Below are positions 261 to 64,000 of a DNA stretch of 64,000 nt, in pieces. Location of the stretch: positions 222,501 through 286,500 of the forward strand of contig JAEMWC010000103.1 of assembly GCA_016490735.1 (NCBI GenBank), in the 5' to 3' direction. Each line of letters opens with the position of its first letter. The first letter of the stretch is position 1. Made by a program: the position numbers and the translations under genes. The notes beneath the pieces were generated by a model, which saw only the letters and a program-made list of their open reading frames with translations, made no database searches and had not been told where the DNA came from. The stretch is from Pachyseris speciosa. Taxonomy: Eukaryota > Cnidaria > Anthozoa > Scleractinia > Pachyseridae.

Positions 261-308
<48 letters not shown>
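247..308. repeat. (TTA)n microsatellite
   Basis: About 20 TTA units with one interruption (ATG at about 258). It is probably the 3' tail of the retroelement to its left. It produces a spurious poly-isoleucine reading frame. Confidence 0.9.
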
Positions 309-309
<1 letters not shown>

Positions 310-403
310 GAGTGAAAGATACTCTCCCTATAGTGGGCTTTGTTCAGGCGTTGTGTATAAATTTTCTTGCACAAGTTGTAATTATGGCTTTCCTGTTGTC
401 CAG

Positions 404-539
404 ACCTTTTGGCAATATTAAAATTCTTGTCGTAACCATGGAGAGTGGCTGTGTGAGGCCTGAAAGATACTTGGTCGCGACAATCTATATTAATACGTTG
501 ATCACCAAGCAGTTTTTATGAGTGCTGTGTCTCTGGAAG
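404..539 (+). pseudogene. Decayed exon, possibly TMEM184/OST-alpha-like (copy 1)
   Basis: A 136-nt exon-like block with a pyrimidine-rich acceptor (TCCTGTTGTCCAG) and a strong donor (GGAAG/GTGAGT). The reading frame RPFGNIKILVVTMESGC, then YLVATIYIN, is loosely like the membrane-helix region of TMEM184/organic solute transporter alpha (DUF300) proteins, but a TGA stop lies about 20 nt before the donor. The copy at 34,525-34,660 has the same length, the same splice sites and the same stop, so the lesion predates the duplication. The alternative is a non-coding 5' UTR exon. The family assignment is weak; the exon-like structure is well supported. Confidence 0.35.
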
Positions 540-1150
540 GTGAGTAAAATACTTTGACAACTTCTGTACTTTATTTAAGACGGTCACTGATACGACGCTA
601 GACCAAACCTACAGAAACGCAGCGAGACAATAGAGAGCGGCTCTCTTCCTGTCTAGGAAGTCGAGCTAGGAAAACAATACATTCAAGTGCCGTTGAAGAT
701 CACAAACAACCTAGTTGCAGTAAACCCAGGCGACAATTTGTGCTCACCAACTCACAGAAGTAGGCATGTCCATGATTACTCCATCATCCCGATTTCCACT
801 TCTATACTACCTTCCACACACTGGCCTTTTATCTTAGAACTATAGTACAGTGAACCTCTCTGCGTCTGGATGTCTTTTCTCCCTCTGCTCATCCTACTCA
901 ATTTTGAGCCAATGTGTATAAAATCACCCACAAATAGTTATTTAGATAACCCCATTCCTGTAAGTTTCTTTTTTGCTGACCACACCGCCTTCTAATCCTC
1001 ATCTCGAGGGGTTGTTGTATTGATAAATAAATAAATAAATAAAGATGATGAAGGCGACTTTAAACGTTGTATTTAAAGGTATTCCCCGACTGTGGTAATA
1101 ATGCATTCCACATTCGGTGTACATACACAACTGACATCCTGTGATACGGT
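540..1150. other. Non-coding, partly duplicated sequence
   Basis: No gene is visible. About 540-690 matches 34,661-34,810 and about 1,090-1,150 matches 34,830-34,870. The stretch between them (700-1,080), including a short (AAAT)n at 1,023-1,042, is missing from copy 2. Confidence 0.6.
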
Positions 1151-1437
1151 AGTTATTTTTATATATTTTTTTATTACCTTTATTTACCTTCGGTGGTATT
1201 TATAGCACAAAGGCTAGTGGGGCCGAGCAAATACAGAAACAAATAATTCAGATAAACAAATAAACATGATAAGAATCCCAACTGGCCGGAGGCAAACCAG
1301 TTGGCAATTTACAAGGATGACCGAGGAGTTGAACCAGGGACTACCCAGAACAACACCATCTAGTGGTTAGAGCGGGATTTGAACCCGGGGTGACCGCATT
1401 GATATCCAGCGCCCTAAACCACTCGGCTATCCTGCCT
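1151..1437 (-). mobile_element. tRNA-derived SINE
   Basis: On the minus strand the element begins at about 1,437 with a tRNA-like head. An A box (GGATAGCCGAGTGG) lies at about 1,419-1,432 and a B box (GGGTTCAAATCC) at 1,375-1,386. It runs to an A-rich tail, seen as T-rich plus-strand sequence at 1,153-1,180. Copy 2 at about 34,870 has the same flanks joined directly, so this is an insertion missing from the paralogue. No clean target duplication longer than 3 nt is visible. It is not a functional tRNA gene, because the head is fused to an unrelated body and lacks a matching acceptor stem. Confidence 0.75.
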
Positions 1438-2289
1438 CCGTTCGTGTGTCGTGACGTTGTTTTGGCCATCAGTGTGTTGAAAAATAACACAGTTATCCAG
1501 CTCAAAATTGCGTAACTTCCCCTGATTGGAGAATGGTCTCATCGGCTAACTATTTAACAACCATCCTGCGAAATGTCGTGGAAGATCGCCTGATAGCCTA
1601 CGAGGTAGCCCGCGATCAGGAGTTCTTATTTGGGGGAACATTGTACAAAAGAAAAAGAAAACTCTTGCTCGCAGGTTACGACGAGGTCGTAAGCATAGTC
1701 GGCTAAAATCAGGAGAAATTCCGTAAGACTGAGCAACAATTGTTTGATTATTCAACGCACATACAGTTTACTGAGTTTGTTACAGAAAACTGGCAAAGCC
1801 GCCATTTTTCTCCTCGATTTAAAAAATACGTATATCGATCGTCTGTTGAATGCAAAAGACGAATATCGAATCCATTATGGCTACATTTGGAAAGTTTTTC
1901 AATGTGTTGAATAATAACAGGCTATATATTGCGCGCGATTTCACTGGAGAATTGTTTAATACCGAGGTCGGGACCCACCGCAGGGCAGCAAGGCTAAGGG
2001 GGACAACGATATAGTTGAAAGCAAAAGATTTGGTAGGCTACGTGTAGGTAACCTGCGATCAGACGAAAGGAAAATAGAGCCTGATCGCAGGTTAACGTGT
2101 AGGTTAATGTGAATCACGGTAATATAAAATAAAGCCGATTCCGCTGAGAAGACACTCATCACCCATCACAGCCAGAGATATCTTAAAATTTCAAGGACTG
2201 GTTATTAAGCAATGGCGTCTTAAGATAGTGCGGGAGGCCTCATTGTATTGAATTTGCTTCGTTCACATTTGTTACACCACAAAATGTAA
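1438..2289. other. Non-coding sequence with inverted repeats
   Basis: About 1,438-1,650 matches 34,873-35,095. The remainder is missing from copy 2. A hairpin-forming pair, CTGCGATCAG and CTGATCGCAG, lies at about 2,051-2,096. No gene is seen. Confidence 0.5.
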
Positions 2290-2291
2290 TA

Positions 2292-4497: not shown

Positions 4498-4596
4498 TTA
4501 GTCTCCTACGCAGCCGTTCTGTGTCTCGTCACGCGACGCTCCTCGCCACTAAGGAGCGTTGCGTGACGAGACAAAGAACGGCTGCGTATGAGACTA
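4498..4596. mobile_element. Near-perfect 99-bp palindromic MITE
   Basis: The arms begin TTAGTCTCCTACGCAGCCG and return as GGCTGCGTATGAGACTA around the centre GGAGCGTCGC/GCAACGCTCC. It is flanked by AAAGAAAG on both sides (4,490-4,497 and 4,597-4,604). It is nested in the hAT-like relic and has no coding capacity. Confidence 0.75.
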
Positions 4597-4899
4597 AAAG
4601 AAAGTAAGTTATTACAAAAAAGGTAAAATCGATGTATAAACTGCAGTACTTGCGTTCCAACACGCTTGTTGTGTAGTTTGAAATGAAACCCAATTTAATG
4701 AACCGTTTTCATTTTATGTCCGTTATGCGACCCCCCTGCCATGTCGATACTATTAAAAATTGCTGGAAGACTATTTCGGATACAGCTCGAAGCCAAAAGG
4801 AGAAAGACCCAATAACACTGCAAATAAAAACCTTGAGGCATCAAATCTTTACGTCCTCTTGAAGATTTGTTTCAAAATTTTTATATTCCAGCCACCAGC

Positions 4900-5599: not shown

Positions 5600-5850
5600 C
5601 CACAAAATGTAATAACGTTTGAGGCAAAATGTAATAACTCTTGAGACAAAATGCAACAGAAACTCAAAGTGTAATAACTTTTGACCCAAAATGTAACATT
5701 AACTAAAAATGTAATAACTTTTGAGGAAAAAAGTAACAGTTACTCAAAATAATATTAACTGTTGTCTCTAAATGGAAACGTAATGTAATAAGTTTCGATG
5801 CAAAATGTAATAGTAACTCAAAATATAATAACTTTTGTAGCAAACTGTAA
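5600..5850. repeat. 40-bp satellite-like array, block 2
   Basis: Six or so degenerate units of the same CAAAATGTAATAACTTTTGA family as block 1, resuming immediately after the hAT-like relic. It is followed by a short (AAACAT)n at about 5,857-5,885, which is the 3' tail of the next LINE. Confidence 0.75.
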
Positions 5851-5856
5851 AACGTA

Positions 5857-7075
5857 TCTGTAAACATAAACATAAACATAAACATAACGTATTTATTCAA
5901 GATGGGGAAACTAAAAGTTATAATACATCTTGAAAAGGAAAACTAGAGGTTGACCCTATGATGTTTCCCCAAATAAAAGATAAAAACAGTAAAAACTATG
6001 TACAATATAAATCCTTCAAGAGCTAGCTACAAGAGGTAAATTAAATAACTGATGCACATGTCATCGAATTCCCCGTAGGGTCGACCCTCGCGCCAACTAG
6101 GGAGATATGTGGGGGAAAACGAGGAGATAGATTGGATTCTTTGCCTGAGGGTAGGGGAAAATCTCGACCGGCAATGTTTTACGATCAAAGATTAGGGGGT
6201 GGGGGAATTCAAAATATTGTAAAGGATGACAAGGGAATTTTCTGCTGAGAGGCACTGCACCCAGGGGACTTTGTCTTGCAAGATTCCTCAATTCCCTGGG
6301 GAATTCCTTTATATTCTAGAACCAGACACACAAGAGATTTGTATAACGTAGAGAACGCACCGAGATTCGACGAGCCTACTGTTCTGTGAACCAAACCCAA
6401 TAATTTGTTAGCCTTATTAACGGTCGCGTTAACTTGTTCGCTCCAGGATAAATCCGAAGAAACCATAATGCCCAATCCTTGACGCACTTTACGCTTTTAA
6501 GCCTCGTACCCAGTGAGTATGTATGTAGGGAGGGAGAGGTCACGTTTGTGTGTAATACGTAAAACTTCACACTTATTGGGATTAAAGCGTAATTGACATT
6601 TAGATGCCCAGGATAGTAGCTGGTCCACATCAAGTTGTAGGGCTTCACTGTCTCTTGCTATATCTGACAGTTTCCTATATACTTTGATGTCGTCGGCAAA
6701 CATCCTTAGTGTCGAAGAGATATTAAATGATATGTCATTAACGTAAATTAAAATTAGAATTGGGCCCAAGATCGCACCTTGGGGAGCCCCCGACGTTTAC
6801 ACAAAACCAGGATGAGTGGGTGCCTCGAACAACAACTCGTTGTTTGCAGTCAGTCAAAAAGCTTCTAAGCCAACGCAATAATGAGCATTTTAATTTGAGC
6901 AACAGCCGTTCGTGAGACACAGAGAAATCTAAAAATATAGCATCGGTGGATCTTGATTAATTTCGTCAAGATGCCCAGTCATCAAAACAACGCAGCAATT
7001 GAGTTAGAGTTGATTTTCCTTCCAGGAAACCAAATTGGTTTGGGTTGAAGACATTTAGGGCTTGCCAGAAATTAA
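5857..7075 (-). pseudogene. 5'-truncated APE-type LINE reverse transcriptase
   Basis: Minus-strand frames at 6,738-6,920, 6,497-6,769 and 6,209-6,487 are successive pieces of one RT: QFGFLEGKSTLTQLLRCF at about 7,000, SHERLLLKLKCSLLRWLRSF, GPILILIYVND, the catalytic block MFADDIKVY, then LRFNPNKCEVLRI and LGIMVSSDLSW. Frameshifts separate the pieces, and the C-terminus is replaced by a MITE fragment at 6,049-6,308. The 3' tail at 5,857-5,885 is (TTTATG)n on the minus strand. It is missing from copy 2. The type is CR1/L2/jockey-like; the exact clade is unresolved. Confidence 0.7.
6049..6308. mobile_element. Truncated copy of the GCACATGTC MITE
   Basis: Similar over its length to the complete element at 9,842-10,172: TGCACATGTC at the left, then AGGGAGATATGTGGGGGA, then TTTTACGATCAAAGATTAGG. 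The right terminal inverted repeat is missing. It lies inside the LINE. Confidence 0.65.
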
Positions 7076-7124
7076 CTACACGATCTTTAGCAATCTTCTC
7101 GCTAACTTTACATGCAATGGAGTT

Positions 7125-7200
7125 GACGCAAACTGTAATAGTAACTCAAACTGTGATAACTTTTGACGCAAAATGTAATAGTAACTCAAAATGTAATAAT
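7125..7200. repeat. 40-bp satellite-like array, block 3
   Basis: About two further units of the CAAAATGTAATA family, ending in ACGAGGTTAGCTGCAAC. That sequence is also the empty site for the IS3EU-like insertion in copy 2. Confidence 0.65.
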
Positions 7201-9340: not shown

Positions 9341-9637
9341 ATGGCTTCAAGAAGATTTTTTCGAAACAAGCGTTGTCGTGCATTATTCGCAGCAGCATTG
9401 GTGGTAGGGGCATTTAAAGCTTTGTTGACAGTTCCGCTTCGTCCAAGCAAGTATGGAACGGCAGACTCTTCTGAAACGTCAGGGAGACTGAATCTGCTAA
9501 AAGGCAAGAACTTTGATGTAAGGTTTAATTTAAGACACAGAAACCAGTCACGTAATCAAAAAATGAAATTTATAAAACAGAGTGTGGCAGAGGTCGCCTG
9601 CGGGGAGTGGTTGGTCGCTTACTATACGATCTTTAAG
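9341..9637 (+). pseudogene. GT54 (MGAT4-like) gene copy 1, exon 1, frame-damaged
   Basis: The N-terminal exon encodes a type II membrane anchor: a basic start (MASRRFFRNKRCR), a hydrophobic helix of about 15 residues (LFAAALVVGAF), then a stem region with SGRLNLLKGKNFDVRF. Compared with the intact copy at 45,287 it has an 18-nt in-frame deletion in the stem, a 1-nt deletion near 9,570 that shifts the frame, and a different 3' end. The only good donor (TTTAAG/GTAGGT at 9,638) is in phase 0, whereas exon 2 needs phase 1. Joined this way, translation stops in exon 2. The exon is therefore probably non-functional unless another 5' exon is used. The start is the same ATG as in copy 2 (GGTATGGCTTCA). 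Confidence 0.65.
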
Positions 9638-9841: not shown

Positions 9842-10172
9842 TGCACATGTCGTCGGCTTCCCCTCGGGGTCTACGCCTGGGCCCACCAGGGAGATATGTG
9901 GGGGAGTACAAGGAGATGGATGGGATTCTTTAACCGAGGGTAGGGGAAAATCTTGACATTGTTTTACGATCAAAGATTAGGGGGTGGGGGAATTCACAAG
10001 TTTGAAAAGGATGTCAAGGAGATTTTCAGGTGAGAGACACCTCACCCAGGGGAATTTGTCTTGTGAGATTCCCCGGTCCCCCGAAGAAATTCCTCAAGTT
10101 TGCTTGACTGATATTACAATCCCCCTGGTTGGCCCGGGGGTCGACCCCACGGGGAAGCCGATGACATGTGCA
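9842..10172. mobile_element. Complete 331-bp MITE in intron 1, missing from copy 2
   Basis: Terminal inverted repeat TGCACATGTCGTCGGCTTCC at the left; the right end reads GGAAGCCGATGACATGTGCA. It is flanked by TTA and TAA. Copy 2 has the unoccupied site AAAGTTACACTGG at about 45,788-45,800, so insertion came after duplication or was lost from copy 2. A 3-nt TWA-type target fits PIF/Harbinger, but that is an inference from the flanks only. Confidence 0.75.
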
Positions 10173-10333
10173 TAACACTGGCTATTGCTGTTTGCAAAAC
10201 GAGGAAGTAAGTTTTCCCATTTTTTTTGTCACAATTTCTCCTTTTTCGTATAAAAGTGTGACGCGTAAACATGCAGGTTTTCAGAGATTACAAACTATCT
10301 GATAAAGAGAGTAAAATGTGAGCGCATTTGATC

Positions 10334-10344
10334 ACAATTGACCT

Positions 10345-10385
<41 letters not shown>

Positions 10386-10597
10386 ATCGCACCGGTAATT
10401 GCGAGGTCACGGGTTCAAACCTCCGTTGAAGTCCTGAATTTTTTTCAGGCTTCTTTTCGCAATTGCATAAATTGCGTTCACAACTGCGAGGATCATTCTT
10501 CATTTGATTTCATTTCCGCAGTTCATATATGATTCATTTCATATATCATCCACACTCATTTCTTTCACGGGAACATATGAACCCACAATTGACCTGT

Positions 10598-10636
<39 letters not shown>

Positions 10637-10878
10637 ATCGCACCGGTAATCGCGAGGTCACGGGTTCAAACCCCGTTGAAGTCCCGAATTTTTTTTCAGG
10701 CTTCTTTTCGCAATTGCATAAATTGCGTTCACAACTGCGAGGATCATTCTTCATTTGATTTCATTTCCGCAGTTCATATATGATTCATTTCATATATCAT
10801 CCACACTCATTTCTTTCACGGGAACATATGAACCCATAATTGACCTGTTCCCAACGTCAGTGGCTTCATAGCTGCGAG
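10334..10878 (+). mobile_element. Tandem tRNA-derived SINE, 251-bp period
   Basis: Two full units and one truncated third unit start at 10,334, 10,585 and 10,836, exactly 251 bp apart. Each full unit holds a tRNA-like head (10,360-10,434 and 10,611-10,684) with A box TAGCTCAGTTGG, B box GGTTCAAAC and pairing acceptor arms (GGCTTCA with TGAAGTC). A shared body follows: GCTTCTTTTCGCAATTGC, TGCGAGGATCATTCTTC, TTCATATATGATTCATTTC. The heads resemble tRNA-Thr, but the anticodon loops have C at position 33 and imperfect stems, so they are SINE heads and not tRNA genes. The third unit jumps from the head directly to the body. It lies in intron 1 of copy 1; copy 2 has a LINE complex here instead. Confidence 0.8.
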
Positions 10879-11284
10879 GATCATTCTTCATTTGATTATT
10901 GATAATGTTAGTCTCTGAACAATGAGATATAACCTTTTTCAAATTACTTGACAAATATTATATGCGAAGATGAGCTAAAGTTTACTTCTCTGTAATGTTT
11001 AGGCGTTATGACCAGGTCAGCGAATGCTCTTCTTTGTGTCAGCCAGGGGGAACTAAATGACGACTAATCCCCCACTCCTTCTCCTTGTACAGGTTTGCTT
11101 TGTGCAAACCTGTCCTTTATACTGATATAAAATACCTTCTACCTCAATATCGGAAGAACAGAAAAACTGCAATTCTTCTTAAAGTCGAAATCGATCATTT
11201 ACTTGGACGTTATTGGGCCTGAGCTGCCAAGAGTTTTTCTTCCTCTTCCTCTTTCAGCTGATCTGTGCTGTTAATTACTTCCAG

Positions 11285-11383
11285 AGTCTTCAAAAGTGCT
11301 GCAGAGACATTCCTTGTGTCCAGAGGATGACATCATGAAGAGTTCTAGGGTCACCAAGTTGGGAAGATATCCAAAAATAAAAC
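11285..11383 (+). CDS. GT54 (MGAT4-like) gene copy 1, exon 2
   Basis: A 99-nt exon between acceptor TTAATTACTTCCAG and donor AAAAC/GTAAGT. It encodes SSKVLQRHSLCPEDDIMKSS and then RVTKLGRYPKIK. Both boundaries are phase 1, so its last base plus the first two of exon 3 make an arginine codon and the frame runs into the catalytic exon. Copy 2 (53,016-53,114) has the same length and only conservative changes. Confidence 0.7.
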
Positions 11384-12059
11384 GTAAGTTTTCTTCTCTT
11401 CGCGATCTCTTGCGTGAAATCTTGTTTGTTCGTCCAGTCACGGCGAACCCGCTCAAAAGAAAGTTACAAGTTAAAACTTGTGAGAACTTTGAAACTTGAG
11501 AAGACTGAAATTACTCAAGTGAAGAACTTTTTTATAGAAATGTGTGTTTCTTGACGGAAATGTATTTTGAGGGCGGACTGCTGTAGCTGCTTATCTCCTC
11601 GAGGCAAGACCGTTTCTGTTTCGGAACGTGATATATAGTAAGGAAGACTGCGCACGTGCAACATAATAAGGCTTTTGAAGAAGAAAGTTAATTGATAAAA
11701 ATTAACAACTGAGTAAAAATACTTGGTGAAATTGATATCATGGAGGCCCAGGCATCAACACATCCACCGCGTGCGAAAATAAACTTAAGACAGCAATACC
11801 ACTTGTTTACCACCGCCGACCGGTTACCTTTAAATAATTAAGGAGAAAGTGCTGTCTTTGTCTCTTTGTAATGACATCTGCAAATAGTTAGACTTTCTAG
11901 TCTTCTCGGATAAGGATTCTGTGGGACGTTAAAGAACCCACACACTGTTCGAAAAGAGTAGGGGTGGTGGTCTATCTCTCATCTGATGGATGGGTTGGTA
12001 AATACTCGGAGAAATTAGGTGTATAAGCTACTAGCTCTAAAATCCGAGGGTAGATAAAG

Positions 12060-12091
<32 letters not shown>

Positions 12092-12227
12092 TGTATGTAT
12101 GTATGTATGTATGTATGTATGTAGTACCACAATGAAGTACCAAGCTTACGAGCTGAAGACACAGGGGGCAGAAATCTGTGATTACTTATTGATTACTGAT
12201 CGATGAAATTCAATTTTATTTTCGAAG
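11384..12227 (+). other. Intron 2 of glycosyltransferase copy 1
   Basis: An 844-nt intron bounded by GTAAGT and TTTTATTTTCGAAG. It contains a SINE with a long (TATG)n tail. Copy 2 has the corresponding 854-nt intron at 53,115-53,968. An ATG inside the polypyrimidine tract at 12,203 makes the reading frame look as if it starts there. Confidence 0.65.
11894..12124 (+). mobile_element. SINE with (TATG)n tail
   Basis: Begins TTCTAGTCTTCTCGGATAAG, contains TGTGGGACGTTAAAGAACCC and ends in about 16 TATG units (12,060-12,124). It is related to the SINE at 20,277-20,601 but internally shorter and with a different tail. It is shared with copy 2 (53,630-53,864), where the tail has partly turned into (TG)n. 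Confidence 0.7.
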
Positions 12228-13381
12228 GATTTCTGTCAATCGGAATAGCGTCAGTTGAAAGGCCTTCTGGAGCAAACTATCTGCTAAAAACCACTCAAAG
12301 TTTGATCGAAAATTTGCGCGAAGAGGACAAGAACAACATTTACATTGTGATATTCCTTGCTGATCTTCACGAGCCACCAAAATCCAGAGCAAAAGAAGAG
12401 ATTTCAAAATCCTTTGGCAAATATATTGATCAGGGGCTTTTGACGGTGATTGAAGCGTATCCCGAGTATTATCCACCACTGACAAATTTGAAAGAGAAGT
12501 ACGGTGACTCCGACAGCAGAAGAGTTTGGCGCTCAAAGCAAAACGTTGACGCCAGTTTTGAGATGTGTTACTGTAAAGATTTATCAAGGTATTACATTCA
12601 TCTCGAAGATGATGTGATATCGTCGCCTAGCTTCTTTCCTAAACTGCAGGATTTCATAAATGCACAGAAGGGTCTGTCTTGGTCTATGCTCGATCTCGCC
12701 GTCCTAGGGGGCATAGCAAAGGTTTATCACTCGCGAGATCTGAGAAAAACTGCTTCGTTCTTCTACCTCCTGTATGATGAAATGCCCGTGGACTGGCTAA
12801 TGAATCGTTGGCGGAAAATTGCGGAAGGAAACAGACATCGGCGATTACCTCCGGCGTCGCTTTTCCAACACACTGGCGCTAGATCCTCTCTGAAAGAAAA
12901 GGGAATGTCCAGGGTAAGCCGGAGAGAACCATTTTTTGACCAGTATGACCAAAAATACAAGGGACTCAATCCCCCGGCTTCTGTCACCTCATCACTGTCT
13001 TCTTACCAGGGAAAACCACAAGACGCGTATGACAAGGGCCGCAGTTATTTCTGGGCGATACATCCGGAAATAGAAGATTACGTCCTGATAAAATTTAACA
13101 AGCCAACTTCTGTACAAGAGGTGTTTGTGGATACAGCATCCAACCAAGCAAAGACGGATTGGTTGAGGTCTGGTGATCTTCAAGTGAGCTTTGAGCCCGC
13201 TGAGGGAGATCCTCAGTTAAACGACCACAATGCGTGTGGAAACTTCCAAACGTTTGGGTCATTCAAGGGTGGAAAAGCGAGAATTTCTGTCGGCAAGTCG
13301 AAAAAGGTTGTTTGTGTAAGAATCATTGTAACCCAGGCTCAAAAGGAGCATGTTTACTTTCGCGAAATTGACGTGTGGTAG
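12228..13381 (+). CDS. GT54 (MGAT4/GnT-IV-like) glycosyltransferase copy 1, catalytic exon 3
   Basis: Family members are Golgi type II enzymes that transfer GlcNAc to the mannose core of N-glycans (UDP-GlcNAc donor). The exon carries the family's landmarks in order: IGIASVERPSGANYLL (start of the catalytic domain), YYPPLTNLKEKYGDS, RRVWRSKQNVDASFEMCYC, the metal/donor-site acidic motif YIHLEDDVISSPSFF, ASLFQHTGARSSL and, after PPASVTSSLSSYQGK, a C-terminal lectin-like region ending REIDVW. About 384 residues are uninterrupted. The exon starts after the acceptor TTTTCGAAG; the upstream in-frame ATG at 12,203 lies in the intron. The neighbouring exon 1 is damaged, so this copy may not make a complete protein. 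It could be MGAT4A/B-like or MGAT4C-like. Confidence 0.85.
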
Positions 13382-14023
13382 AGCTGTCAAACTAAAACGG
13401 CTTTACAAAACTGATCAGGGTTTTTTTGCTAGGTCTAACGCACCTTAACCTGACTATTGCCAGGGTCACTACATAATGTAATTGTTTGCTTTACCAATGT
13501 ATTTAGTTTTGACTTAGGTGGTCGATATTCAAATAGTTACCGCGGGCATTCCAGCGGTTATGTTAAAGTTGATTTGCTGTGTTCCTATAAGAGTAGTTAG
13601 AGAATTAACTCATAATGAGCGGGTAAAATTCGTCTCCCTGCCCTGCCATGTAAACCGAATTACAAAGTTATACTGTTACTGTGGTAGCCTATGATGTCAA
13701 TAAAATCAGCATAACTTGTTTACGAACAACTGGGAATTTATACAGTTAGAGTTTGTAGATCATGCAGCGGGGAAAATGTGATTCGAGTTTTCAGTGAATC
13801 ATTGTGTGCACTGCAAATTGCCCCCCCTTAAAATTGGAAAAGAACCAATCAAAATGGTCATATATGTATATTACCCTATGAGCTTCAATAGCTTCCTTTA
13901 AACATGGCGGCGTTAGGGGACGAAGTCATGCAGGTAGGGGAATTTTCTTGGAGCGTGCCCAGCCTGAAAATTCGCATTTCATTCTTTAAAATTAATCTTG
14001 TGCTGTGGGATAAGGATCACAAG

Positions 14024-14024: not shown

Positions 14025-14088
<64 letters not shown>
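14025..14088. repeat. (AAT)n microsatellite, left half of LINE target
   Basis: About 21 AAT units. The array continues at 15,512-15,560 on the other side of the inserted LINE. In copy 2 the same place is a short imperfect (AATAAG)n at 55,727-55,790 with no insertion. Confidence 0.9.
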
Positions 14089-14089
14089 G

Positions 14090-49783: not shown

Positions 49784-51039
49784 TCCTTTTCATTCAGTTC
49801 TTTGTAACTTCTTACAGTCAGCACCTTGCTTTCGTAAAAAGCATTTCGTTCTTACATGAGTCCATATACTAGGGCGTGATCACTTATTCCGACATCACAA
49901 ACGCCACAATCCTTAAATAGCTCTGGCTTATTGGTTAAAATAAGATCAATTAATGTTTGGCTGTTATTAGTAATCCTTGTTGGTTTAGTTATGACACAAG
50001 TCAACCTGTGTGTGTCTTCCAGATCTCGTAAGATTTTCCCTTCCCTCGAGAGTGGACAAAGTCTGTCGAGGTTCAGGTCGCCTGTGATCACCAAATATGA
50101 TTTCTGAACTGAAGCCCATGATGTCAAGTCGTGTAGATCTTTCTCAAGGGTAACATGGTAATTATTTCCAGTCGGCTTGGGTGGCCTATAGATGCCCAGA
50201 ATCACTACATCGTACCGTCCAAATTTAGACTGAATTGCCAGAGGCTCGATCGTAGTAAATTTTCTTGGCAATCCCAGCCGTTTAGAAGGTAGTTTATCTG
50301 AAATATACGCCATTACACCACCTCCACCTTTTTTTCGATCATTCCTGTATGTATTATAGCAACTCTGTGCAAACTGCGAATCCGGATATGTGCGGTCGAT
50401 CTTAGTCTCAGTAAGAAATACGACTTGAGCTTTAGATTCCTTGATTAATGATCCAATCTCTTGCACTTTATTTTGAAGACTATTTACGTTCATATGAATG
50501 AGAAGAATTTCACGAGCGTCCTTTGTTCTTTGTAGTGAATCGGGTAATGAATCCACATTAGCATTTTCTTGTTCGTTGTCCGTATTAGCATAGGACAACT
50601 CAAGAATTGGTTCATCGCCGCTTTGATCAAAGAAAGAGTTTCCGCATTTCGGTAGGGAGCAAAGAAGACAAGTCCAATCAAGACTGTAATTCTCGAGATA
50701 ATATTGGAAAATGTGTTTTCCCATATTAATGCATTTAGCATGGAACCAGGTTTTGCATTCCGCACACAATATGGCGTCTTGATTCTTTCTCACCGATTGT
50801 TGACAATCACCGCAGGGATGTTTCGGGGTACTAGTTCTTTTCCTATGCGGTCCTGGGTTAGGATGGATGTCTCCGGACTTTAAATGTAGTTGGAAGGAGC
50901 TTGTACCTGAGAAGTTGTAGGGAATACGTGATGTAGTAAACGTTCTTCTACGTGTGCATGACAGCGGGCGAGGTCGAGTTACAAACCTTGCATCAGAAAT
51001 AACCGTTAGCAGGGTGACATCTACCGAGTTTTCGTACAA
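49784..51039 (-). pseudogene. LINE: 2A-like motif, PHD finger and APE endonuclease
   Basis: Minus-strand open frame of 395 residues plus a short continuation (KVLTVRSYKELNEKE) in another frame. In order: FQLHLKSGDIHPNPGP, a 2A-like motif (family consensus D-x-E-x-N-P-G-P; here H replaces E); a PHD finger (CGDCQQSVRKNQDAILCAEC, WFHAKC, WTCLLC); then the endonuclease with LLIHMNVNSLQNKV, VFLTETKIDRTYPDS, GGGGVMAYISDKL, ILGIYRPPKP, LVITGDLNLD, TLIDLILTNKPEL and ISDHALVYGLM. The endonuclease acidic and S-D-H residues are all present. It is separated from its RT by E on one side and from its N-terminus by E on the other. The endonuclease part is complete, but the element is inactive. Confidence 0.8.
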
Positions 51040-51043
51040 ACAA

Positions 51044-52482
51044 GAGGCTACAATTAGCCTAAACCCGGGCTTGCAAAAAACAGTATTGTATCCCTAACTT
51101 AGTGCTAAACAAAAGAATAGAGGGAAGTCTGTCTTTCTTACATCGGACGCATTGTGTTTAGCTTGTGTTGGAGTCTATTTCTTTAGACCCCTATCAACAT
51201 ATATTCCTCTAAAATACAGCTCAACCATTGAGCACAATAATTATAACACTTGTAAAAAATATTTCTAAAAGAACAAGAAAAAGAGAAACAGAAAAAAATA
51301 AAGCCCGTGATATATACCACTAAAGGACATCGAACCCGGGTTAGCTGCGTCACAGGCAGGAACAATGACCTTTAGGCCACAGAGGTTTATCGTTATGCAA
51401 GATGATAAAAATAGTGTATTGATTCCAAAAAAAAAAAAAAAAAACTAAGCACACTTGTTTTCGCTTCGATGGATAATTGTTTGAGAAAGGAAACGCTTAT
51501 CGAACGATGTTGGATTTTTTCGCATAAATGTGAATGGAGTCTCGGTGAAATGTGAGTAGAAAATTAATTAGCAGAGTGAAACTGTTTACAAATACGTCAA
51601 TCCAGGGTCATTTGAAACACAAGAAAGGAACGTTTCTGGACAGTTTCAAGGGACGCTAGTACATTTGTAAAATATAATCGCTTATCATTCAAAAATTAAA
51701 GTCCAGAAATTGAGATATTGTGGCAAAATTGTAAATAAACTACCTGTCAAAGTCTCAGGGGTGTGTGATATCCCGTACTTGAGTTATTCAACAAAATGTA
51801 CATCTCAATGGAGCGGATACGGGAACACGGCAGTCCATCTGGAGTTAAATTTTGGTCATGTTAAAAGCTTTCTTCTCGCTGTTGAACTTGCAAACATTCG
51901 TATAGACACTTCTCTTAACATATTAGTTGTTCAGACTTCAAAGACACAAGGTGAATCGACGTTTTCCGATACGTGACAACAGGCATCATTCTTGCTGTTG
52001 ATATGAGATTTACACTCGAATCACTCGGCCGTGAAAGGTCAAACTCCCTTTGTCTGTAGTCTCTAATTTTTGGCGCTTCCCTCGCGTCGCGTCTCCTCGC
52101 AACTTCGCGCGCGCACGTGCCCCCACAATCCGTCGCCAAAATTAGAGACTACTCGCTGTCTACTGAAGCAGACACGGGGAAACACGGCAGTCCATCTGCC
52201 GTTAAGTTTACTCATGTTAAAAACTTTCTTCTCGCCGTTGAACTTCCAAACATTCGCATAGACACTTCTCTTAACATATTGTTTGTTCAGACTTCAAAAG
52301 CCACAAGAAGAATCGACATTTTCCCATACGTGACAACACGCATCACTGTTGTTAAAAATAGTTAGCGCTTGCGCAGAAACGGCGGAAGTGCCATTTGTGG
52401 ATGATACTCGACGACGAAAAAGAAGAACCGTCGGTAGTTTAAGACCCGGGCGCCGCGCGAGACGCGCGCAGCCCGGGTAATA
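51044..52482 (+). mobile_element. Family E element (right), inverted relative to the left copy
   Basis: Nearly the complete inverse of 48,359-49,779, beginning GAGGCTACAATTAGCCTAAA and ending with the hairpin CCCGGGCGCCGCGCGAGACG and then GCGCGCAGCCCGGGTAAT. It interrupts the LINE N-terminus: ...DIYQHTSY on one side, YENSVDVTLL on the other. The target duplication is unclear (ACAA at the inner side, ATAA at the outer). It contains an A run (51,427-51,445) where the left copy has a T run. Confidence 0.7.
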
Positions 52483-52596
52483 AGACGTGTGTTGGTAAAT
52501 ATCCCATATTGAAAATAACATAAGTGCCAATATGAAGCAGTGACGCCGACAAGGTCTGTTATTAGTCAATCGATGCTCCATGCCTGTGACCGCCAT
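52483..52596 (-). pseudogene. LINE ORF N-terminal fragment
   Basis: Minus-strand frame MAVTGMEHRLTNNRPCRRHC then FILALMLFSIWDIYQHTSY, with a hydrophobic segment ahead of the 2A-like motif. It is severed from the rest by the right-hand E element. Confidence 0.5.
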
Positions 52597-53015
52597 GTTA
52601 TCGCGACATATATCGAGACATGTATGATGATAATGTTAGTCTCTGAACAATGAGATATAACATTGTCGAAATTACTTGACAGATTATTATATGCGAAGGT
52701 GAGCTAAAGTTTACTTCTCTGTAATGTTTAGGCATTATGACCAGGTCAATAATTGCTCTTCTTTGAGTCAGCTAGGGGGGACTAAATGAGGACTAATCCC
52801 CCACTTCTTCTCCTTGTACAGGTTTGCTTCGTGCAAACCTGATATAAAATACCTTTTAACTCAATATCGGAAGAAGAGAAAAACTGCAATTCACCTTAAA
52901 ATCAAAATAAATCATTTGCTTGGACTTTTTTGGGCCTGGGCTGCCAAGAGTTTTTCTTCCTCTTCCTTTCTTCCTCTTCCTCTTTCAGCTGATCTGTGCT
53001 GTTAATTACTTCCAG

Positions 53016-53114
53016 AGTCTCCAAACGTGCTGCAGAGACATTCCTTGTGTCCAGAGGATTACATCATGAGCAGTTCCAGGGTCACCAAGTTGGGAAGATA
53101 TCCAAAACTAAAAC
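53016..53114 (+). CDS. GT54 (MGAT4-like) gene copy 2, exon 2
   Basis: A 99-nt exon after the acceptor TTAATTACTTCCAG, with donor AAAAC/GTAAGT. Encodes SPNVLQRHSLCPEDYIMSSS then RVTKLGRYPKLK. Phase 1 at both sides agrees with exons 1 and 3, so the copy 2 frame is continuous. Confidence 0.75.
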
Positions 53115-53794
53115 GTAAGTTTTCTTCTCTTGACGATCTCTTGCGTGAGGTCTTGTTTGTTCGTCTAGTCACGGCGAACCCGCTCAAAAGAAAGTTACAA
53201 GTTAAAACTTGTGAGAACTTTAAAACTTGAGAAGACTGAAATTACTCAAGTGAAGAACTTTTTTTTTTATAGAAATGTGTGTTTCTTGACTGAAATGTAT
53301 TTTGAGGGCGGACTGCTGTAGCTGCTTATCTCCTCGAGGCAAGACCGTTTCTGTTTCGGAACGTGATATATAGTAAGGAAGACTGCGCACGTGCAACATA
53401 ATAAGGCTTTTGAAGAAGAAAGTTAATTGATAAAAATTAACAACTGAGTAAAAATACTTGGTGAAATTGATATCATGGAGGCCCAGGCATCAACACATCC
53501 ACCGCGTGCGAAAATAAACTTAAGACAACAATACCACTTGTTTACCACCGCCGACCGGTTAGCTTTAAATAATTAAGGAGAAAGTGCTGCCTTTGTCTCT
53601 TTGTAACGACATCTGCAAATAGTTAGACTTTCTAGTCTTCTCGGATAAGGATTCTGTGGGACGTTAAAGAACCCACACACTGTTCGAAAAGAGTAGGGGT
53701 GGTGGTCTATCTCTCATCTGATGGATGGGTTGGTAAATACTCGGAGAATTAGGTGTATAAGCTACTAGCTCCTAAAATCCGAGGGTAAATAAAG

Positions 53795-53826: not shown

Positions 53827-53968
53827 TGTATGTATGTGTGTGTGTGTGTGTGTGTATGTATGTAATACCACAATGAAGTACCAAGCTTACGAGCTGAAGA
53901 CACACGGGGCAGAAATCTGTGATTACTTATTGATTACTGATCGATGAAATTCAATTTTATTTTCGAAG
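53115..53968 (+). other. Intron 2 of glycosyltransferase copy 2
   Basis: An 854-nt intron, the partner of 11,384-12,227. It contains the SINE at 53,630-53,864, whose (TATG)n tail has gained (TG)n. Confidence 0.65.
53630..53864 (+). mobile_element. SINE with (TATG)n/(TG)n tail, copy 2
   Basis: Partner of 11,894-12,124 with the same core TGTGGGACGTTAAAGAACCC. Confidence 0.7.
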
Positions 53969-55122
53969 GATTTCTGTCAATCGGAATAGTGTCAGTTGAA
54001 AGGCCTTCTGGAGCAAACTATCTGCTAAAAACCACTCAAAGTTTGATCGACAATTTGAGCGAAGAGGACAAGAACAACACTTACATTGTGATATTCCTTG
54101 CTGATCTTCACGAGCCACCAAAATCCAGAGCAAAAGAAGAGATTTCAAAATCCTTTGGCAAATATATTGATCAGGGGCTTTTGACGGTGATTGAAGCGTA
54201 TCCCGAGTATTATCCACCACTGACAAATTTGAAAGAGAAGTACAGTGACTCCGACAGCAGAAGAGTTTGGCGCTCAAAGCAAAACGTTGACGCCAGTTTT
54301 GAGATGTGTTACTGCAAAGATTTATCAAGGTATTACATTCATCTCGAAGATGATGTGATATCGTCGCCTAGCTTCTTTCCTAAACTGCAGGATTTCATAA
54401 ATGCACAGAAGGGTCTGTCTTGGTCTATGCTCGATGTCGCCGTCCAAGGGAGCATAGCAAAGGCTTATCACTCGCGAGATCTGAGAGAAACTGCTTCGTT
54501 CTTCTACCTCCTGTATGATGAAATGCCCGTGGACTGGCTAATGAATCATTGGCGGCAAATTGCGGAAGGAAACAGACATCGGCGATTACCTCCGGCGTCG
54601 CTTTTCCAACACATTGGCGATAGATCCTCTCTGAAAGAAAAGGGAATGTCCGGGGTAAACCAGAGGGAACCATTTTTTGACCAGTATGACCAAAAATACA
54701 AGGGACTCAATCCCCCGGCTTCTGTCACCTCATCACTGTCTTCTTACCAGGGAAAACCACAAGACGCGTATGACAAGGGCCGCAGTTATTTCTGGGCGAT
54801 ACATCCGGAAATAGAAGATTACGTCCTGATAAAATTTAACAAGCCAACTTCTGTACAAGAGGTGTTTGTGGATACAGCATCCAACCAAGCAAAGACGGAT
54901 TGGTTGAGGTCTGGTGATCTTCAAGTGAGCTTTGAGCCCGCTGAGGGAGATCCTCAGTTAAACGACCACAATGCGTGTGGAAACTTTCAAACGTTTGGGT
55001 CATTCAAGGGTGGAAAAGCGAAAATTTCTGTCAGCAAGTCGAAAAAGGTTGTTTGTGTAAGAATCATTGTAACCCAGGCGCAAAAGGAGCATGTTTACTT
55101 TCGCGAAATTGACGTGTGGTAG
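53969..55122 (+). CDS. GT54 (MGAT4/GnT-IV-like) glycosyltransferase copy 2, catalytic exon 3
   Basis: Partner of 12,228-13,381, same length and no indels. The same GT54 landmarks are present: IGIVSVERPSGANYLL, YYPPLTNLKEKYSDS, RRVWRSKQNVDASFEMCYC, YIHLEDDVISSPSFF (acidic donor/metal motif), ASLFQHIGDRSSL, PPASVTSSLSSYQGK and the lectin-like C-terminus ending REIDVW. About 19 residues differ from copy 1, mostly clustered between the EDD motif and PPASVTSS, while the last 130 residues are almost identical. With exons 1 and 2 it gives a complete type II Golgi enzyme, so this is the likely functional copy. MGAT4A/B-like and MGAT4C-like identities cannot be separated from the sequence alone. Confidence 0.85.
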
Positions 55123-56438
55123 GGCTGTCAAACTAAAACGGCTTTACAAAATTGATCGTTTTTTTTTTTTGCTAGAGGTCTAACGCACCTTAACCTTACT
55201 ATTGCGAGGGTCACTACACAAAGTCATTATTTGCTTTACCAATATATTAAGTTTTGACCTAGGTGGTCAATATTCAAATAGTTGCCTCGGGGATTCCAAA
55301 GTTAATTTGCTGTGTTCCTATAAGAGTAGTGGGAGAACTAACTCATAATGAGCGGGGAAAATCCGCCTTCCTGCTCTGCCCTGTAAACCGAATTACAGAG
55401 ATATATTGTTACTGTGGTAGCCTATGATGTCAACAAAATCAGCATAACTTGTTCACGAACAACTGGGAATTTATACAGTTAGAGTTTGTAGATCATGCAG
55501 CGTAGAAAATGTGAGTCGAGTTTTCAGTGAATCATTGTGTGCACTGCAAATTATCCCCCCTTAAAAATGAAGAAGCCCCATGAGCTTCAGTAGCTTCCTT
55601 TAAACATGGCGGCGTTAGGGGACGAAGTCATGTAGGTAGGGGAATTTTCTCGGAGCGTGACCAGCCTGAAAATTCGCATTTCATTCTTTAAAATTAATCT
55701 TGTGCTGTGGGATAAGGATCACAAGGAATAATAAGAATAAGAATAAGAATAAGAATAAGAATAAGAATAATAAAGAATAAGAATAATAAAGAAAACCAGA
55801 AAAGAATGCCCTGACCCAACTTTCTGGCAAAATTGGAGAAGGAAAAAGCGTTATACAGTCTTTCGGTGTAATCTGCGATATTTTTCTTCCAATGCAGAAG
55901 TATGTATTCTTTCCTTGCAACATGCCTCCTGTGCAGTGCACGCGATCGCGAAGAGGCTTGTCCCCACTTCACGTTTTTTCTACTCGTCCCCAAGTGAAAT
56001 ATGCACCGACTTTAAACAAACAAAAGATGTTTTTATCTGTTGCAAATATTTTTATTCCATTGTAAATATTTTTACATATTGTATACACTTTTACCGCTAG
56101 TTAAAATTTAATTTAACAGATGAAGAGCCACTTTGTGGAAACGCTGTTATGAACTAAACCGTTACTTACTTATTCACTTAGGAGTGGCCACCCATTAAAC
56201 AGCCACCCCCTACTAGGTGGCCAGTAGCCAAAGTCCCGATGAGGCTTCTTCTATCGTTTTTTACCTCCCTCTATGAAAGCGGCCACTATCCATTTTCTCG
56301 AGGGTGGCCTCTTGAACTGAACTGTATTGTATATCGTCAAGTGGGAAACAACAACAAAAAATGGAAATTGGCACATCACAAGGTTGCAAGGCGTCATAAT
56401 CTAAAATACCATTTTTACGCTGATGCTACTCAACTTTA
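55123..56438. other. 3' flank of glycosyltransferase copy 2 and duplicated non-coding block
   Basis: Colinear with 13,382-14,088 and 15,512-16,218. AACAAA at 55,432-55,437 replaces the AATAAA of copy 1. At 55,727-55,790 is an imperfect (AATAAG)n microsatellite, which is the empty counterpart of the LINE-filled (AAT)n in copy 1. Confidence 0.6.
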
Positions 56439-57458
56439 TTACTCGAGCTTTGTAGAAAAGCCCGAGGTTTAAAATGGCCTTCATTTTTCATCGTCGTGTT
56501 TCATCCACAAAGCTCACTTCCGGATTTTCTGCGCAAGCGCTAGCTAATTATAACAACTCACAATAGCAAGAATGATGCCCGTTGTCACGCATCGGAAAAC
56601 GTCGATTCACCTTGTGTCTTTGAAGTCTGAACAGCCAATATGTTAAGAGAACTGTCTATACGAATGTTTGCAAGTTCAACAGCGCGAAGAAAGCTTTTAA
56701 CATGACCAAATTGAACTCCAGATGTCTTAGACTGCTGTGTTTCCCTGTGACGGCTCCATACTAAACTAATTTTGAGTGGTACATTTTGTTGAATAACTCA
56801 AGTACGGAATATCATACACCCGTGAGACTTCAACACGTAGTTTCTTTGCTATTTTTTTCACAATATCTCAATTTCTGGACATTAGTTTTTGAATAAGAAG
56901 CGATTTCAGTTTTTACTTGCGTGACGTGAAACTGACCGCAGAAACCTTACTCTCTTTCTTATGTTTCAAATGACCTATTTGTAAACAGTTTCACTCTGCT
57001 GATTATCTCAGATTTTCTCCTCACATTTCACCAAGACTCCATTGACGTTTATGCTAAAACTCCTACATCGTTCCATAAGCGTTTCCTTTTTCAAACTCTT
57101 GGCAGAAATATCCATCGAAGCGGAAACAAGTGTGCTTAGCTTTTTGGAATAAATACACTATTTTTACCTTCAGATGGTCCAGAGTTCATTGCTACTACTG
57201 CCTCTGATGCGGATAACCTACGCAGGCATTATTTTTCGTTCTTCGTTTTCTTCTTCTTTTATAAATATGTTTTACAACTATTATTATTATTATTCTCAAT
57301 GGTTGAGCTGTAAAGCAATTTTGTAATTTTAAAGGGGTATATGTTGATAGGGGTCTGTGGATATACGCTGCAAAGAAATAGACTCCAACACAAGCGCAAT
57401 GCATCCGATGTAAGAAAGACAGACTTCTCTCTATTTTGTTTAGCGCTAAATGAGCTCT
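56439..57458. mobile_element. Family E element, copy in duplicated block (copy 2)
   Basis: Partner of 16,219-17,262. It has the same outer hairpin and conserved blocks but a much shorter (ATT)n (57,278-57,292). Confidence 0.65.
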
Positions 57459-61328: not shown

Positions 61329-61857
61329 GGCCCTGTTTTCAAGCAGGGAGGGTAACCCTAGTGCTAGGGTTACCCTAGCAGGAGGGTCAAAGATAGCCCG
61401 GGTTTACAAGTAAAATTTCACAGGTATAGTTACCCTGGCACCCAGGACAACAGAATCGCAAACAAAATGGTCGACAAGAAAAGAGTTGTGCTAAGTACTT
61501 CGATTCTCCTTTCGTGTTGTCTGTTATTGCTCCTCTCGATTGTCATGGGATGCTGTTATGTTACCTTTTTATTTCTAGACAACGACAACAAGTTACTGAA
61601 TACAATACTTCACTCGCGCGAATGACTTGAATGCAACATGTGAAACGGGAGGGTGATTCGACGAAGAAGATTACGAAGAAAACTTAGTCGTACAGATCAT
61701 CGGTGGAAGTAGTTCTTCGAGGGAAGGATGCTTACCTAACTTGCACTTAAATTGTTTAGCTGCCTTGTAAACACGTTGATAAAAAAACGAAGGAATGTGG
61801 GAGCGCTAGGGTATAACCCTCCTGCTAGGGTTACCCTACCTGCTTGTAAATAGGGCC
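61329..61857 (+). mobile_element. PIF/Harbinger-like element, copy 2
   Basis: Partner of 21,128-21,647. TAA lies at 61,326-61,328 and 61,858-61,860. The right end here keeps an extra GGGTTATACCCT-type inverted segment lost in copy 1. Confidence 0.8.
61467..61625 (+). CDS. 52-aa leucine-rich frame, copy 2
   Basis: Partner of 21,266-21,424. Begins MVDKKRVVLSTSILLSCCLL, same length, no stop. Probably a truncated Harbinger transposase start. Confidence 0.35.
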   Translation: MVDKKRVVLSTSILLSCCLLLLLSIVMGCCYVTFLFLDNDNKLLNTILHSRE

Positions 61858-62205
61858 TAAATCAAGACCTCTGTAAAAGTAATCGTCAAGAATACAGCTT
61901 CAATATGGTTCAGAAATTGAAAACGTATGGCTAGTAAGTGAGTTTTCACCCTTAACTGCGCTAAAATTGCGTAGTTATTTGATTTGCAACGGTTTTTCCT
62001 TTGCGTGCTGAACTATTTTCTCTCACTCACCATTTTGCTTAAAAACTTCCTACCGGGTCTGGTTACTGTGCCCCTCACGGGAATGACAGATCTTCTGAGC
62101 TGACTAACTGATTTTGAATTTGATTGATTGATTTTATACTATCAATTTATGCCGTTTTAACACATACTTTAAGTGAGCAAACTGAATTATAATTGTACAG
62201 AGCAA

Positions 62206-63013
62206 TAATAACAATAAACTATTAAATACAATAAAAATATTAATATTTAACAATTAAAAGAAGAACATGAACAACTCGCATATAGCGTAAGCTAGTCGAG
62301 GCGAGTTGTACAGGAAAAAAAATCAATTTGTAAGCTTCAAATAACAGACTATGAACAATGACAGGAATAAACTATGAATAAATACAATCATTAGCATCCG
62401 GAAATAAATATGGTTACACAATTGATTAGTAATAGGTAGCTTAATAAACTAAACAAACTAAACAGGCGAAGACATTAACAATGAATGGTTACAAAAGGTT
62501 ATGTTAGGTGCCTCAATATAATCCTCCTCGCCTTCTAAAGCTGCGAATAAAGCTTTGCGAATTGATTTCTTGAACGCCAGTTTTGGTAGATTACATATTT
62601 GCGATGGGAGACAATTCCACGCTTTCGCGCCAAAGCATAAAAAAGAGTCCCGCTGTTGATTTAGACGTGAAAATTTGATATGATATTTGCCACAAGATGA
62701 AGCCCTCGTGTTATATGAATGAACCGAGCTGGTCTTGACAAATTTTTCAGAGATAGCTTTTGGAGCAGAGTTATTTGAAACATCATACATAGAGTGTAAG
62801 ATAGGTTCAAAGTAAAGCAGATGAATGGGTAATATTTTTGAAGAAATAAAAAAAGGAATAGCCTGAGTTCTTGGATTTAGAAAATGCATCATACGTAGTG
62901 CACGTTTTTGAAGCAACAATAATTTATTAAGATGGGCTTTTGCGGCTTGGCAAAATGTCAAGTAGGGAAGCATGAGGGACTGATATATTCTTCTCAAAGT
63001 ACAGAAAGGAGCA
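62206..63013 (-). pseudogene. LINE C-terminal fragment, missing from copy 1
   Basis: Minus-strand frame 62,458-62,997: MRRIYQSLMLPYLTFC, KLLLLQKRALRMMHFLNPRT, PIHLLYFEPILHSMYDVSN, SSVHSYNTRASSCGKYHIKF and AKAWNCLPSQI. This is the post-RT tail of an APE-type LINE of another family than 44,118-44,853. Copy 1 at about 21,993-22,005 has the flanks joined (ACAGAGCATATTACTG), so the insertion is specific to copy 2. Confidence 0.7.
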
Positions 63014-63380
63014 AATTACTGTTAGCATTTAGTGCTGAAAATATACAAACCCCCCCCCCCCCCACCTTGAGCCGTTTTCTCTTCCCATATTTGGAACACA
63101 GCAGTCAAGTGTTTAGTTCGGAATAAATAGTTGATACAGGTTGTTGTTAGATAATTATGTCTCGTGTTTTTGTCCATCCCCCCCACCACCACACACACGG
63201 ATTCTGTTTTCCCAATTTTTACACCGTTTCAAATATCAGTTTTTGGAATGTTTGTCCGATTACTTGTAAATTAACTGCTATGAGAAATTTCTAACGTACA
63301 AAGTTTCTGGCAGTTGAAATGCTGGGATAGCTACTAATTTATGATTTGTGTATGGAACTACAAAAAAGTTCTATGACTTA

Positions 63381-63929
63381 CCTTAAATATTACATGAAAT
63401 TTCTGCGACATGTTTATTTCGCGATTTCACGAGGAGCGTATTTCGCGACACTTAAATTTCGAAATTTTGCGGAAATTTTCCGATTTTGAATCACTTTAAT
63501 TTCGCGTTTTTGGGTAAGACTTAATTTATAACTTGTCCTTGAATCAAATAAAACTACTTCAATTTATGAACAACCGTAAAAGCCACTGAGAGGTTCAAGC
63601 AAACTGTGGAACAGCACGACAAGGAGCCAGTAAATGGACGGTTTGAGGACTGTTCAAAAGAAATGCTGCCTGCAGCAGCGGAAGAAAATAATAGTGATGA
63701 GGAGGATCAAGACGTTGCCTCAGAATAGTTAAAAATATGATTTTCTGAAGGTTTCATTGCTAATAAACTCGTTCTTTCTTGATTATTGACATAATGTGAG
63801 TCACCTTAGTTATTTTCGCGTCATGTTATCTTCGTGACACTTATTGTTCGCGTCACTTTAATTTTGCAAATCTTTTAAAATCGCAACATTCGTGAAATTA
63901 ACGTGTCACGAAAACTTTATGTTATAAAG
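63381..63929 (+). mobile_element. TA-flanked pogo/Tc1-like relic, copy 2
   Basis: Partner of 22,380-22,923. TA lies at 63,379-63,380 and 63,930-63,931. The internal acidic tail frame (ending DEEDQDVASE) is still open. Confidence 0.55.
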
Positions 63930-64000
63930 TACCTGTCCAATGTCTAGCTACTCACAATAACATATATTTGTTATTATGATGAAATAGAGATCGTACCATT

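Follow-up and report, generated by a model that had tools for sequence, protein, structure and literature searches.

A probable hybrid gene in what looks like a tandem array of MGAT4-type genes in the stony coral Pachyseris speciosa

The stretch of DNA analysed here (the window) comprises 64,000 nucleotides of the stony coral Pachyseris speciosa and holds two copies of a long direct duplication, each with a predicted gene of the MGAT4 type. It corresponds to positions 222,501-286,500 of contig JAEMWC010000103.1 (hereafter C103), which is 1.44 Mb long in an assembly of 984 Mb and 2,368 contigs (GCA_016490735.1), and it contains no N. When the 64-kb window was compared with itself by BLAST and the plus-strand matches were chained into collinear blocks, two collinear direct copies were found on the + strand, copy 1 at 309-22,994 and copy 2 at 34,432-64,000, joined by 16 chained blocks in which 734 of the 13,817 aligned columns are mismatched. 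This self-comparison bears out the large direct duplication of the original prediction. Its claimed reach over most of 300-64,000 holds for the copies at both sides and fails for the spacer that separates them (22,995-34,431), which has no partner inside the window; parts of the spacer recur near C103:363-387 kb and 294-302 kb. Comparison along the contig indicated that the duplication extends past both window ends, copy 1 being the part of its unit that aligns with copy 2 inside the window and copy 2 being truncated by the window end.

The order and spacing first proposed for the copies stood in most respects. A dozen landmarks had been mentioned and nine pairs listed, eight of which hold (seven exactly, and 17,735/57,942 by a 3-bp extrapolation). 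The ninth, 7,205/40,651, lies 10 and 5 bp off the edge of the block 7,215-8,099/40,646-41,511, with an offset differing by 15 bp, and the chain paired landmark 7,205 with 35,525, where a 40-bp tandem repeat lies. The drift in offset, put at about 34 to 41 kb, was 33.4-41.7 kb for blocks of at least 354 columns, while short repeat-rich pieces went down to 28.2 kb. Identifiable insertions, which had been claimed to account for the differences between the copies, explain much of the difference and leave a part of it. To the left of 11.23 kb the alignment is confined to islands (3,700 columns across 10.9 kb of copy 1). The 40-bp repeat occurs in both copies as dispersed short arrays (2,755-2,916, 5,602-5,856, 7,123-7,199, and 35,175-35,521), which confuse the alignment of the left parts.

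Judged from its sequence, each copy carries a three-exon gene for a predicted MGAT4-type N-acetylglucosaminyltransferase, both domains of the family scoring above the curated cut-offs in both copies. The third exon, with the conserved and C-terminal domains and the stop codon, lies at 12,228-13,381 (+) in copy 1 and at 53,969-55,122 (+) in copy 2. The corresponding open reading frames (ORFs; 12,200-13,378 and 53,941-55,119) matched PF04666 with E=1.3e-57 (195.3 bits) and E=5.7e-57 (193.2 bits), respectively (cut-off 51.5), and the MGAT4 C-terminal domain PF23524 with E=4.9e-16 (59.7 bits) and E=1.5e-16 (61.3 bits; cut-off 42.9); copy 1, and only copy 1, also matched two solved MGAT4A C-terminal chains by sequence. 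Exons 1 and 2 were located by homology and splice signals. In copy 1, exon 1, which encodes a putative signal anchor, spans 9,341-9,551 (+), its end being set at a donor common to four copies, and exon 2 spans 11,285-11,383 (+); in copy 2 they span 45,287-45,515 (+), again with an inferred end, and 53,016-53,114 (+). The N-terminus encoded by exon 1 was hydrophobic when judged by eye. With the shared donor the models are open, with 487 residues in copy 1 and 493 in copy 2, the splice sites being inferred and other donors possible. It was considered that copy 1 might be a broken gene, as a difference in length near the point where exon 1 ends appeared to put it out of frame; this was rejected, as the earlier donor gives open models in four copies (c1, c2, c3, and c5). 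Under the same shared-donor scheme, a further copy described below (unit A2, c4) gave no open model.

The search for relatives returned 292 homologues, 120 of them listed, most of which are unnamed; the species shown belong to the stony corals Montipora, Acropora, Oculina, and Desmophyllum. Among the 120 listed homologues, the closest match is 75% identical to the window copies. In a tree of 64 proteins, made of 62 of these 120 homologues and the two copies, the latter are sisters with full support. Since they are sisters and their closest homologue reaches 75%, no relative in the tree splits the pair. The predicted enzymes of the window thus form a pair of their own, to which none of the nearest 62 homologues is more than 75% identical.

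The two copies do not diverge evenly. The mismatch rate is 10.3% in their left parts (3,700 columns) and 3.5% in their right parts (10,117 columns), with a break at 11,231/52,948 under a strict penalty and at 11,451/53,182 under a weak one. A single break raised the likelihood by 111.6, whereas the best of 500 block shuffles gained 20.1. Synonymous divergence (dS) steps together with the overall mismatch rate, from 0.135 in exon 1 (6/48.7 sites in 72 codons, the last 6 of which lie beyond the adopted donor) to 0.016 in exon 3 (4/247 sites; Fisher p=0.002 between the exons), and in a part of intron 2 the copies differ at only 11 of 701 columns. Alleles of one locus should show even divergence along both copies, and a sharp step that includes synonymous sites is not expected of them.

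The MGAT4-type genes are not confined to the window. Exon-3 protein matches were found at no fewer than 11 places on C103, at least 6 on contig C1254, and at least 3 on contig C1429, these counts being lower bounds obtained after adjacent rows of one gene had been merged. Those on C103 lie between 234.7 and 602 kb and share the + strand, and some of them are partial or contain stops; the first six are 40-51 kb apart, and the later ones follow at 79 kb in one case and at 6-34 kb in the others. The gene loci were compared over 4 kb, by their longest match and with gaps left out, using eight copies from C1254 and C1429 (the third C1429 place was excluded). Six of these eight have a partner on C103 at 98.6-99.7%, and for the remaining two the best C103 partner reaches 97.0% (C1254:61 kb) and 95.6% (C1254:166 kb). 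Copy 1 is 99.4% identical to the copy at C103:361 kb and 99.6% to that at C1254:2 kb, copy 2 is 99.7% identical to that at C1429:17 kb, and the copies at C103:320 kb and 407 kb are 99.9% identical to each other, whereas copy 1 and copy 2 share 95.8%. By this comparison copy 1 and copy 2 are paralogues, because each is far closer to a partner elsewhere than to the other, and the window looks like a part of a real coral tandem array on one contig.

The units on C103 are, in order, A1 (copy 1), B (copy 2), C1, A2, and C2, so that copy 1 belongs to class A and copy 2 is followed by units of classes C, A, and C. Copy 2 was scored against each of them in 1-kb bins, the C units being scorable only up to 56.4 kb of the window. 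To the left of 53 kb its distance from A1 is 8.4-13.3%, and C1 or C2 is the nearer wherever both could be scored in a bin; its distance from C2 is 0-1.2% at 31-43 kb and climbs to 5.9% at 45 kb. The relation is reversed right of 53 kb, copy 2 being 1.8-6.2% from A1 to the window end and 6.1-9.7% from C in the four scorable bins. Copy 2 has an exon 1 of the C type, in which B shares with C1 and C2 an in-frame stretch of six residues that is missing from both A units, and an exon 3 of the A type.

Sites at which A1 equals A2 and C1 equals C2, the two differing, were used to place the change. Copy 2 is C-like at 22 of 28 such sites at 52,635-53,060 and A-like at 22 of 25 at 53,107-53,543 (Fisher p=1.3e-6), a count that draws on 53 of the 119 sites of the block, a misaligned run of indels at 53,562-53,637 and the later sites (together 64 A-like, 2 C-like) having been excluded. 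The switch can accordingly be placed within about 140 bp, at 53,060-53,195, at exon 2. A1 and C1 differ by 8.6% in the exon-1 block and by 8.3% in the exon-3 block; this even divergence fits B as the unit that switched partners, and is no proof of it. The junction was found again on C1429 (locus L002), which matches window positions 52,868-53,224 over 357 bp at 99.7% and, beyond an insertion of about 0.4 kb, continues at 98.3% (gaps counted) to 56,631.

What surrounds copy 2 is informative about how it might have arisen. The segment from A1 through the spacer to the left part of B differs from that running from A2 through its spacer to the left part of C2 by 0.99% over 42,758 columns, the final 2-kb bin reaching 4.7%. 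On the other side, the right part of B, the next spacer, and C1 differ from the right part of A2, its spacer, and C2 by 2.28% over 42,254 columns, the 2-kb bins giving 2.4-4.1% in the B/A part and 0-9.3% further on, with many bins at 0-1.1%. The flanks on both sides of B thus continue as the parents' own flanks. Such a layout is as expected of unequal crossing over between misaligned A-C blocks, and copy 2 is probably a hybrid that arose in this way between older neighbours. A2-C2, on the contig that bears B, would be an unrecombined pair. In the mechanism proposed, non-allelic homologous recombination would have joined the C gene of one chromatid to the A gene of a misaligned partner, with a crossover inside or beside exon 2 that would have turned an A-C pair into A-(C/A)-C. 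The resulting hybrid gene would owe its exon 1 to one paralogue and its catalytic exon 3 to a different one, and later exchanges and transposon insertions might have added further patches.

Several observations weigh against this reading, or at least against its simplest form. Which unit is the recombinant is decided by the context, as the three unit classes alone do not fix it, and C is unalignable beyond 56.4 kb of the window. Both gene blocks are noisier than a single clean event would leave them: in the exon-1 block 58 of 84 sites are C-like, 21 A-like, and 5 other, and in the exon-3 block 103 of 154 are A-like, 42 C-like, and 9 other. Within the A-like right part of copy 2 there is a C-like patch at 55,150-55,449 (23 of 35 sites C-like, 10 A-like, 2 other, by a count made by eye), which holds 23 of the 42 C-like sites of the exon-3 block; in the segment 13,413-13,684/55,154-55,417, delimited under the weaker penalty only, the two copies diverge by 11.5%. 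In the blocks that adjoin the switch on its left, the distance of copy 2 from C is 2.5-5.2%, compared with 0-1.2% from C2 at 31-43 kb, and these unequal distances along the left part imply more than one event. As for C1429, the comparison covers window position 52,868 rightward only, and its insertion relative to copy 2 (about 357-741 of L002), which sets this second contig apart, sits immediately to the right of the junction.

The alternative that survives best acts at a larger scale and leaves the window pair as paralogues. A1-B-C1 (222-333 kb) and A2-C2 (348-416 kb) form a repeat of low divergence at offsets of about 126 and 87 kb, and these two groups could be a recent duplication or, on this alternative, haplotypes set in series. 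The 0.99% between C103:222.5-268.5 kb and 348.5-400 kb (A1 to the left part of B against A2 to the left part of C2) falls inside the 0.3-1.4% range of the closest pairs across contigs, and C1 and C2 differ by 0.1% in the gene region. This explanation is nevertheless held to be somewhat unlikely. A third distinct A-type sequence on C1254, 0.4-0.7% from both A1 and A2, makes too many for a diploid with one A locus, and no N occurs from 286.5 to 416 kb of C103. Although the C1254 copy has six in-frame stops and could stem from a poor contig, its sequence favours two or more A loci, their order being unproven.

Decidedly less probable is a history in which the units are real tandem duplicates and the step in copy 2 stems from gene conversion of its right part and not from a crossover that created B. 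The C-like patch described above and a low-divergence stretch at 11,452-13,412, seen under the weaker segmentation, resemble conversion tracts, and the inability of the three unit classes to single out the recombinant suits this explanation too. A conversion tract over exon 3 had itself been a candidate, as 11.45-13.41 kb shows 1.9% divergence and stands out from its immediate flanks; it was rejected, since 6 of 100 shuffles reached as high a value in the scan of the right part. Conversion is further opposed by the length of the A-like similarity of copy 2, which extends for 10.8 kb as far as the window end and beyond it up to C103:287.5 kb, and by the match of both outer flanks to the A-C-A-C context, which it does not predict.

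The remaining explanations concern the assembly of the window itself. Two haplotypes of one locus placed in series by the assembler, with copies 1 and 2 as alleles, had been offered in the original prediction alongside true tandem duplication. Some facts favour such an error: passages of one genome study give heterozygosities of 2.3% and 1.14% in two coral species and haploid assemblies of 650 and 350 Mb (PMC10236652), and the assembly used here, at 984 Mb, is larger, so that alternative haplotypes are probably present in it; moreover, the right parts of the copies are only 3.5% different, and two of the eight copies elsewhere have no C103 partner closer than 97.0% and 95.6%. The sharp step to 10.3% in the left parts, the partners at 99.4-99.7% that each copy has elsewhere against 95.8% between the two, and the further units that follow on C103 render it most improbable for this pair. 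Of the two options, tandem duplication is therefore supported, by the 11 or more MGAT4 places on C103, the two-step divergence, and the closer partners elsewhere, and haplotypes in series are unsupported for this pair; for the larger 0.99% repeat, which reaches beyond the window, they are only somewhat unlikely. An equally improbable assembler chimera of C-type and A-type reads, to which long near-identical repeats could lend themselves by inviting false joins, is opposed by the distances beside the switch (2.5-5.2% from C and about 4.2% from A), too large for a patchwork of those units, and by the second occurrence of the junction on C1429.

If copy 2 is indeed a hybrid from unequal crossing over, the array might, as a rather speculative extension, be actively producing hybrid MGAT4 genes. 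A crossover at exon 2 would attach the catalytic exon of one paralogue to the membrane anchor and stem of a second, and coral haplotypes would then differ in the number and combination of glycan-branching enzymes. Faster evolution of copy 1, or selection on the copies, was also considered and no claim is made of either; once c4 and the C units had been added, many of the residue changes between copy 1 and copy 2 proved common to A1 and A2. At the 19 differing residues, scored against 29 of the 120 listed homologues, the commoner residue is in copy 2 in 14 cases and in copy 1 in 4, with one tie; relative-rate chi-square values ranged from 0.09 to 4.57 across eight outgroups, which are mutually non-independent. 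The 19 nonsynonymous and 4 synonymous changes give a ratio of nonsynonymous to synonymous divergence (dN/dS) of 1.3 (Fisher p=0.80), compatible with neutrality.

Upstream of copy 2, two CATSPERD/E-like exons were located by tblastn with P0049, an Acropora cervicornis protein record. The first, a C-terminal exon at 31,617-31,781 (+), matched the Pfam family CATSPERD-E_C with E=2.5e-5 and 24.3 bits, below the cut-off of 27.4 bits, P0049 itself scoring 44.8 bits; the second and last, at 33,332-33,478 (+), gave alone no match to CATSPERD-E_C and none to a solved structure below E=0.05. Both exons are also found upstream of C1 and C2, a single one upstream of copy 1 (at C103:216,070, outside the window), and the last exon only upstream of A2 (340 kb); C1 and C2 are each followed downstream by a further match to the last exon (at 327 and 414 kb, respectively). 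In most of the first six units, CATSPERD/E-like exons precede a three-exon MGAT4-type gene. As P0049 joins the CATSPERD/E-like and MGAT4 families in one prediction, the two genes are probably neighbours in A. cervicornis too, which suggests an old linkage between them in corals.

The copies also differ by a number of insertions. The largest, of 6.6 kb, lies in copy 2 at 46,006-52,627 (-) and has an empty site in C1 and C2; it comprises pieces of a retrotransposon with PHD, endonuclease, and reverse-transcriptase parts, together with a 1.45-kb element present twice in inverted orientation (48,360-49,784 and 51,039-52,481, 93%) around the endonuclease part of the PHD-finger retrotransposon. More distant relatives of the 1.45-kb element were seen at 16,266-17,268 and 56,479-57,449. 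At the spot of the 6.6-kb insertion, copy 1 has 10,335-10,899. There, at 10,333-10,873, a 251-bp unit is repeated in tandem (98%), each repeat with a transfer RNA (tRNA)-like gene (Rfam tRNA, 51.4 and 35.5 bits), to which ARAGORN gave a four-base anticodon and no assignment; this tandem was found in copy 1 only, adjoining the site of the copy 2 insertion. Self-comparison revealed another insertion in copy 1 at 14,025-15,560, inside an AAT array, with a 371-codon ORF (14,103-15,215) that has no Pfam match and is perhaps a transposon piece. A 0.8-kb insertion in copy 2 at 62,205-63,008 (-), whose site is empty in copy 1, holds nearly all of a 185-codon frame with no Pfam match. Hairpin-ended insertions resembling miniature inverted-repeat transposable elements occur in copy 2 at 43,668-43,962, flanked by repeated target bases and with an empty site in copy 1, and in copy 1 at 9,842-10,174, with an empty site in copy 2 and a relative at 6,052-6,287. 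Self-complementary palindromes were observed at 4,498-4,597 (100 bp) and 25,277-25,461 (185 bp).

What had been suspected to be an assembly artefact may thus be a recombination event that can be placed, having left a coral array with a hybrid gene whose crossover lies at one exon. Such cases allow a test of the idea that the copies in coral gene arrays arise by birth and death and seldom exchange sequence. They also carry a warning, since the removal of assembly duplicates by similarity only could delete real paralogues. Neither MGAT4 nor PF04666 appeared in a word search of the main texts of two studies of coral gene arrays (PMC10236652 and PMC12314368), and a literature search for MGAT4C and coral returned no coral gene array by title, which does not establish a wider absence from print.

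Tandem arrays of paralogues are nonetheless well known in stony corals. In the parts of Noel et al. (2023, PMC10236652) concerned, almost one third of the genes in two corals are tandem duplicates, alleles and tandem duplicates are told apart by distinct synonymous divergence, and gene conversion is judged rare, mutations lying mostly in introns. The array described here is similar to theirs, in that a stony coral has long kept paralogues standing in tandem. In contrast to the pattern in those sections, the copies resemble each other more closely here in a part of intron 2 and some 10 kb of flank than in the exon-1 block, because the crossover would have cut through the gene. For Astrangia poculata, widespread segmental and tandem duplications are likewise described in part of PMC12005167. 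Passages of Takeuchi et al. (2025, PMC12314368) report non-syntenic regions and lineage-specific gene expansions in Acropora, whose haplotypes differ in gene order, with non-allelic homologous recombination as the model for the arrays. Recurrent tandem duplication, transposons within the array, and a model of unequal crossing over are shared with the present case; what differs is that these passages treat other gene families and describe a model, and that the present case offers one switch point narrowed to about 140 bp. The finding agrees with these studies as one more coral array, to which it adds a probable hybrid unit with a placed switch.

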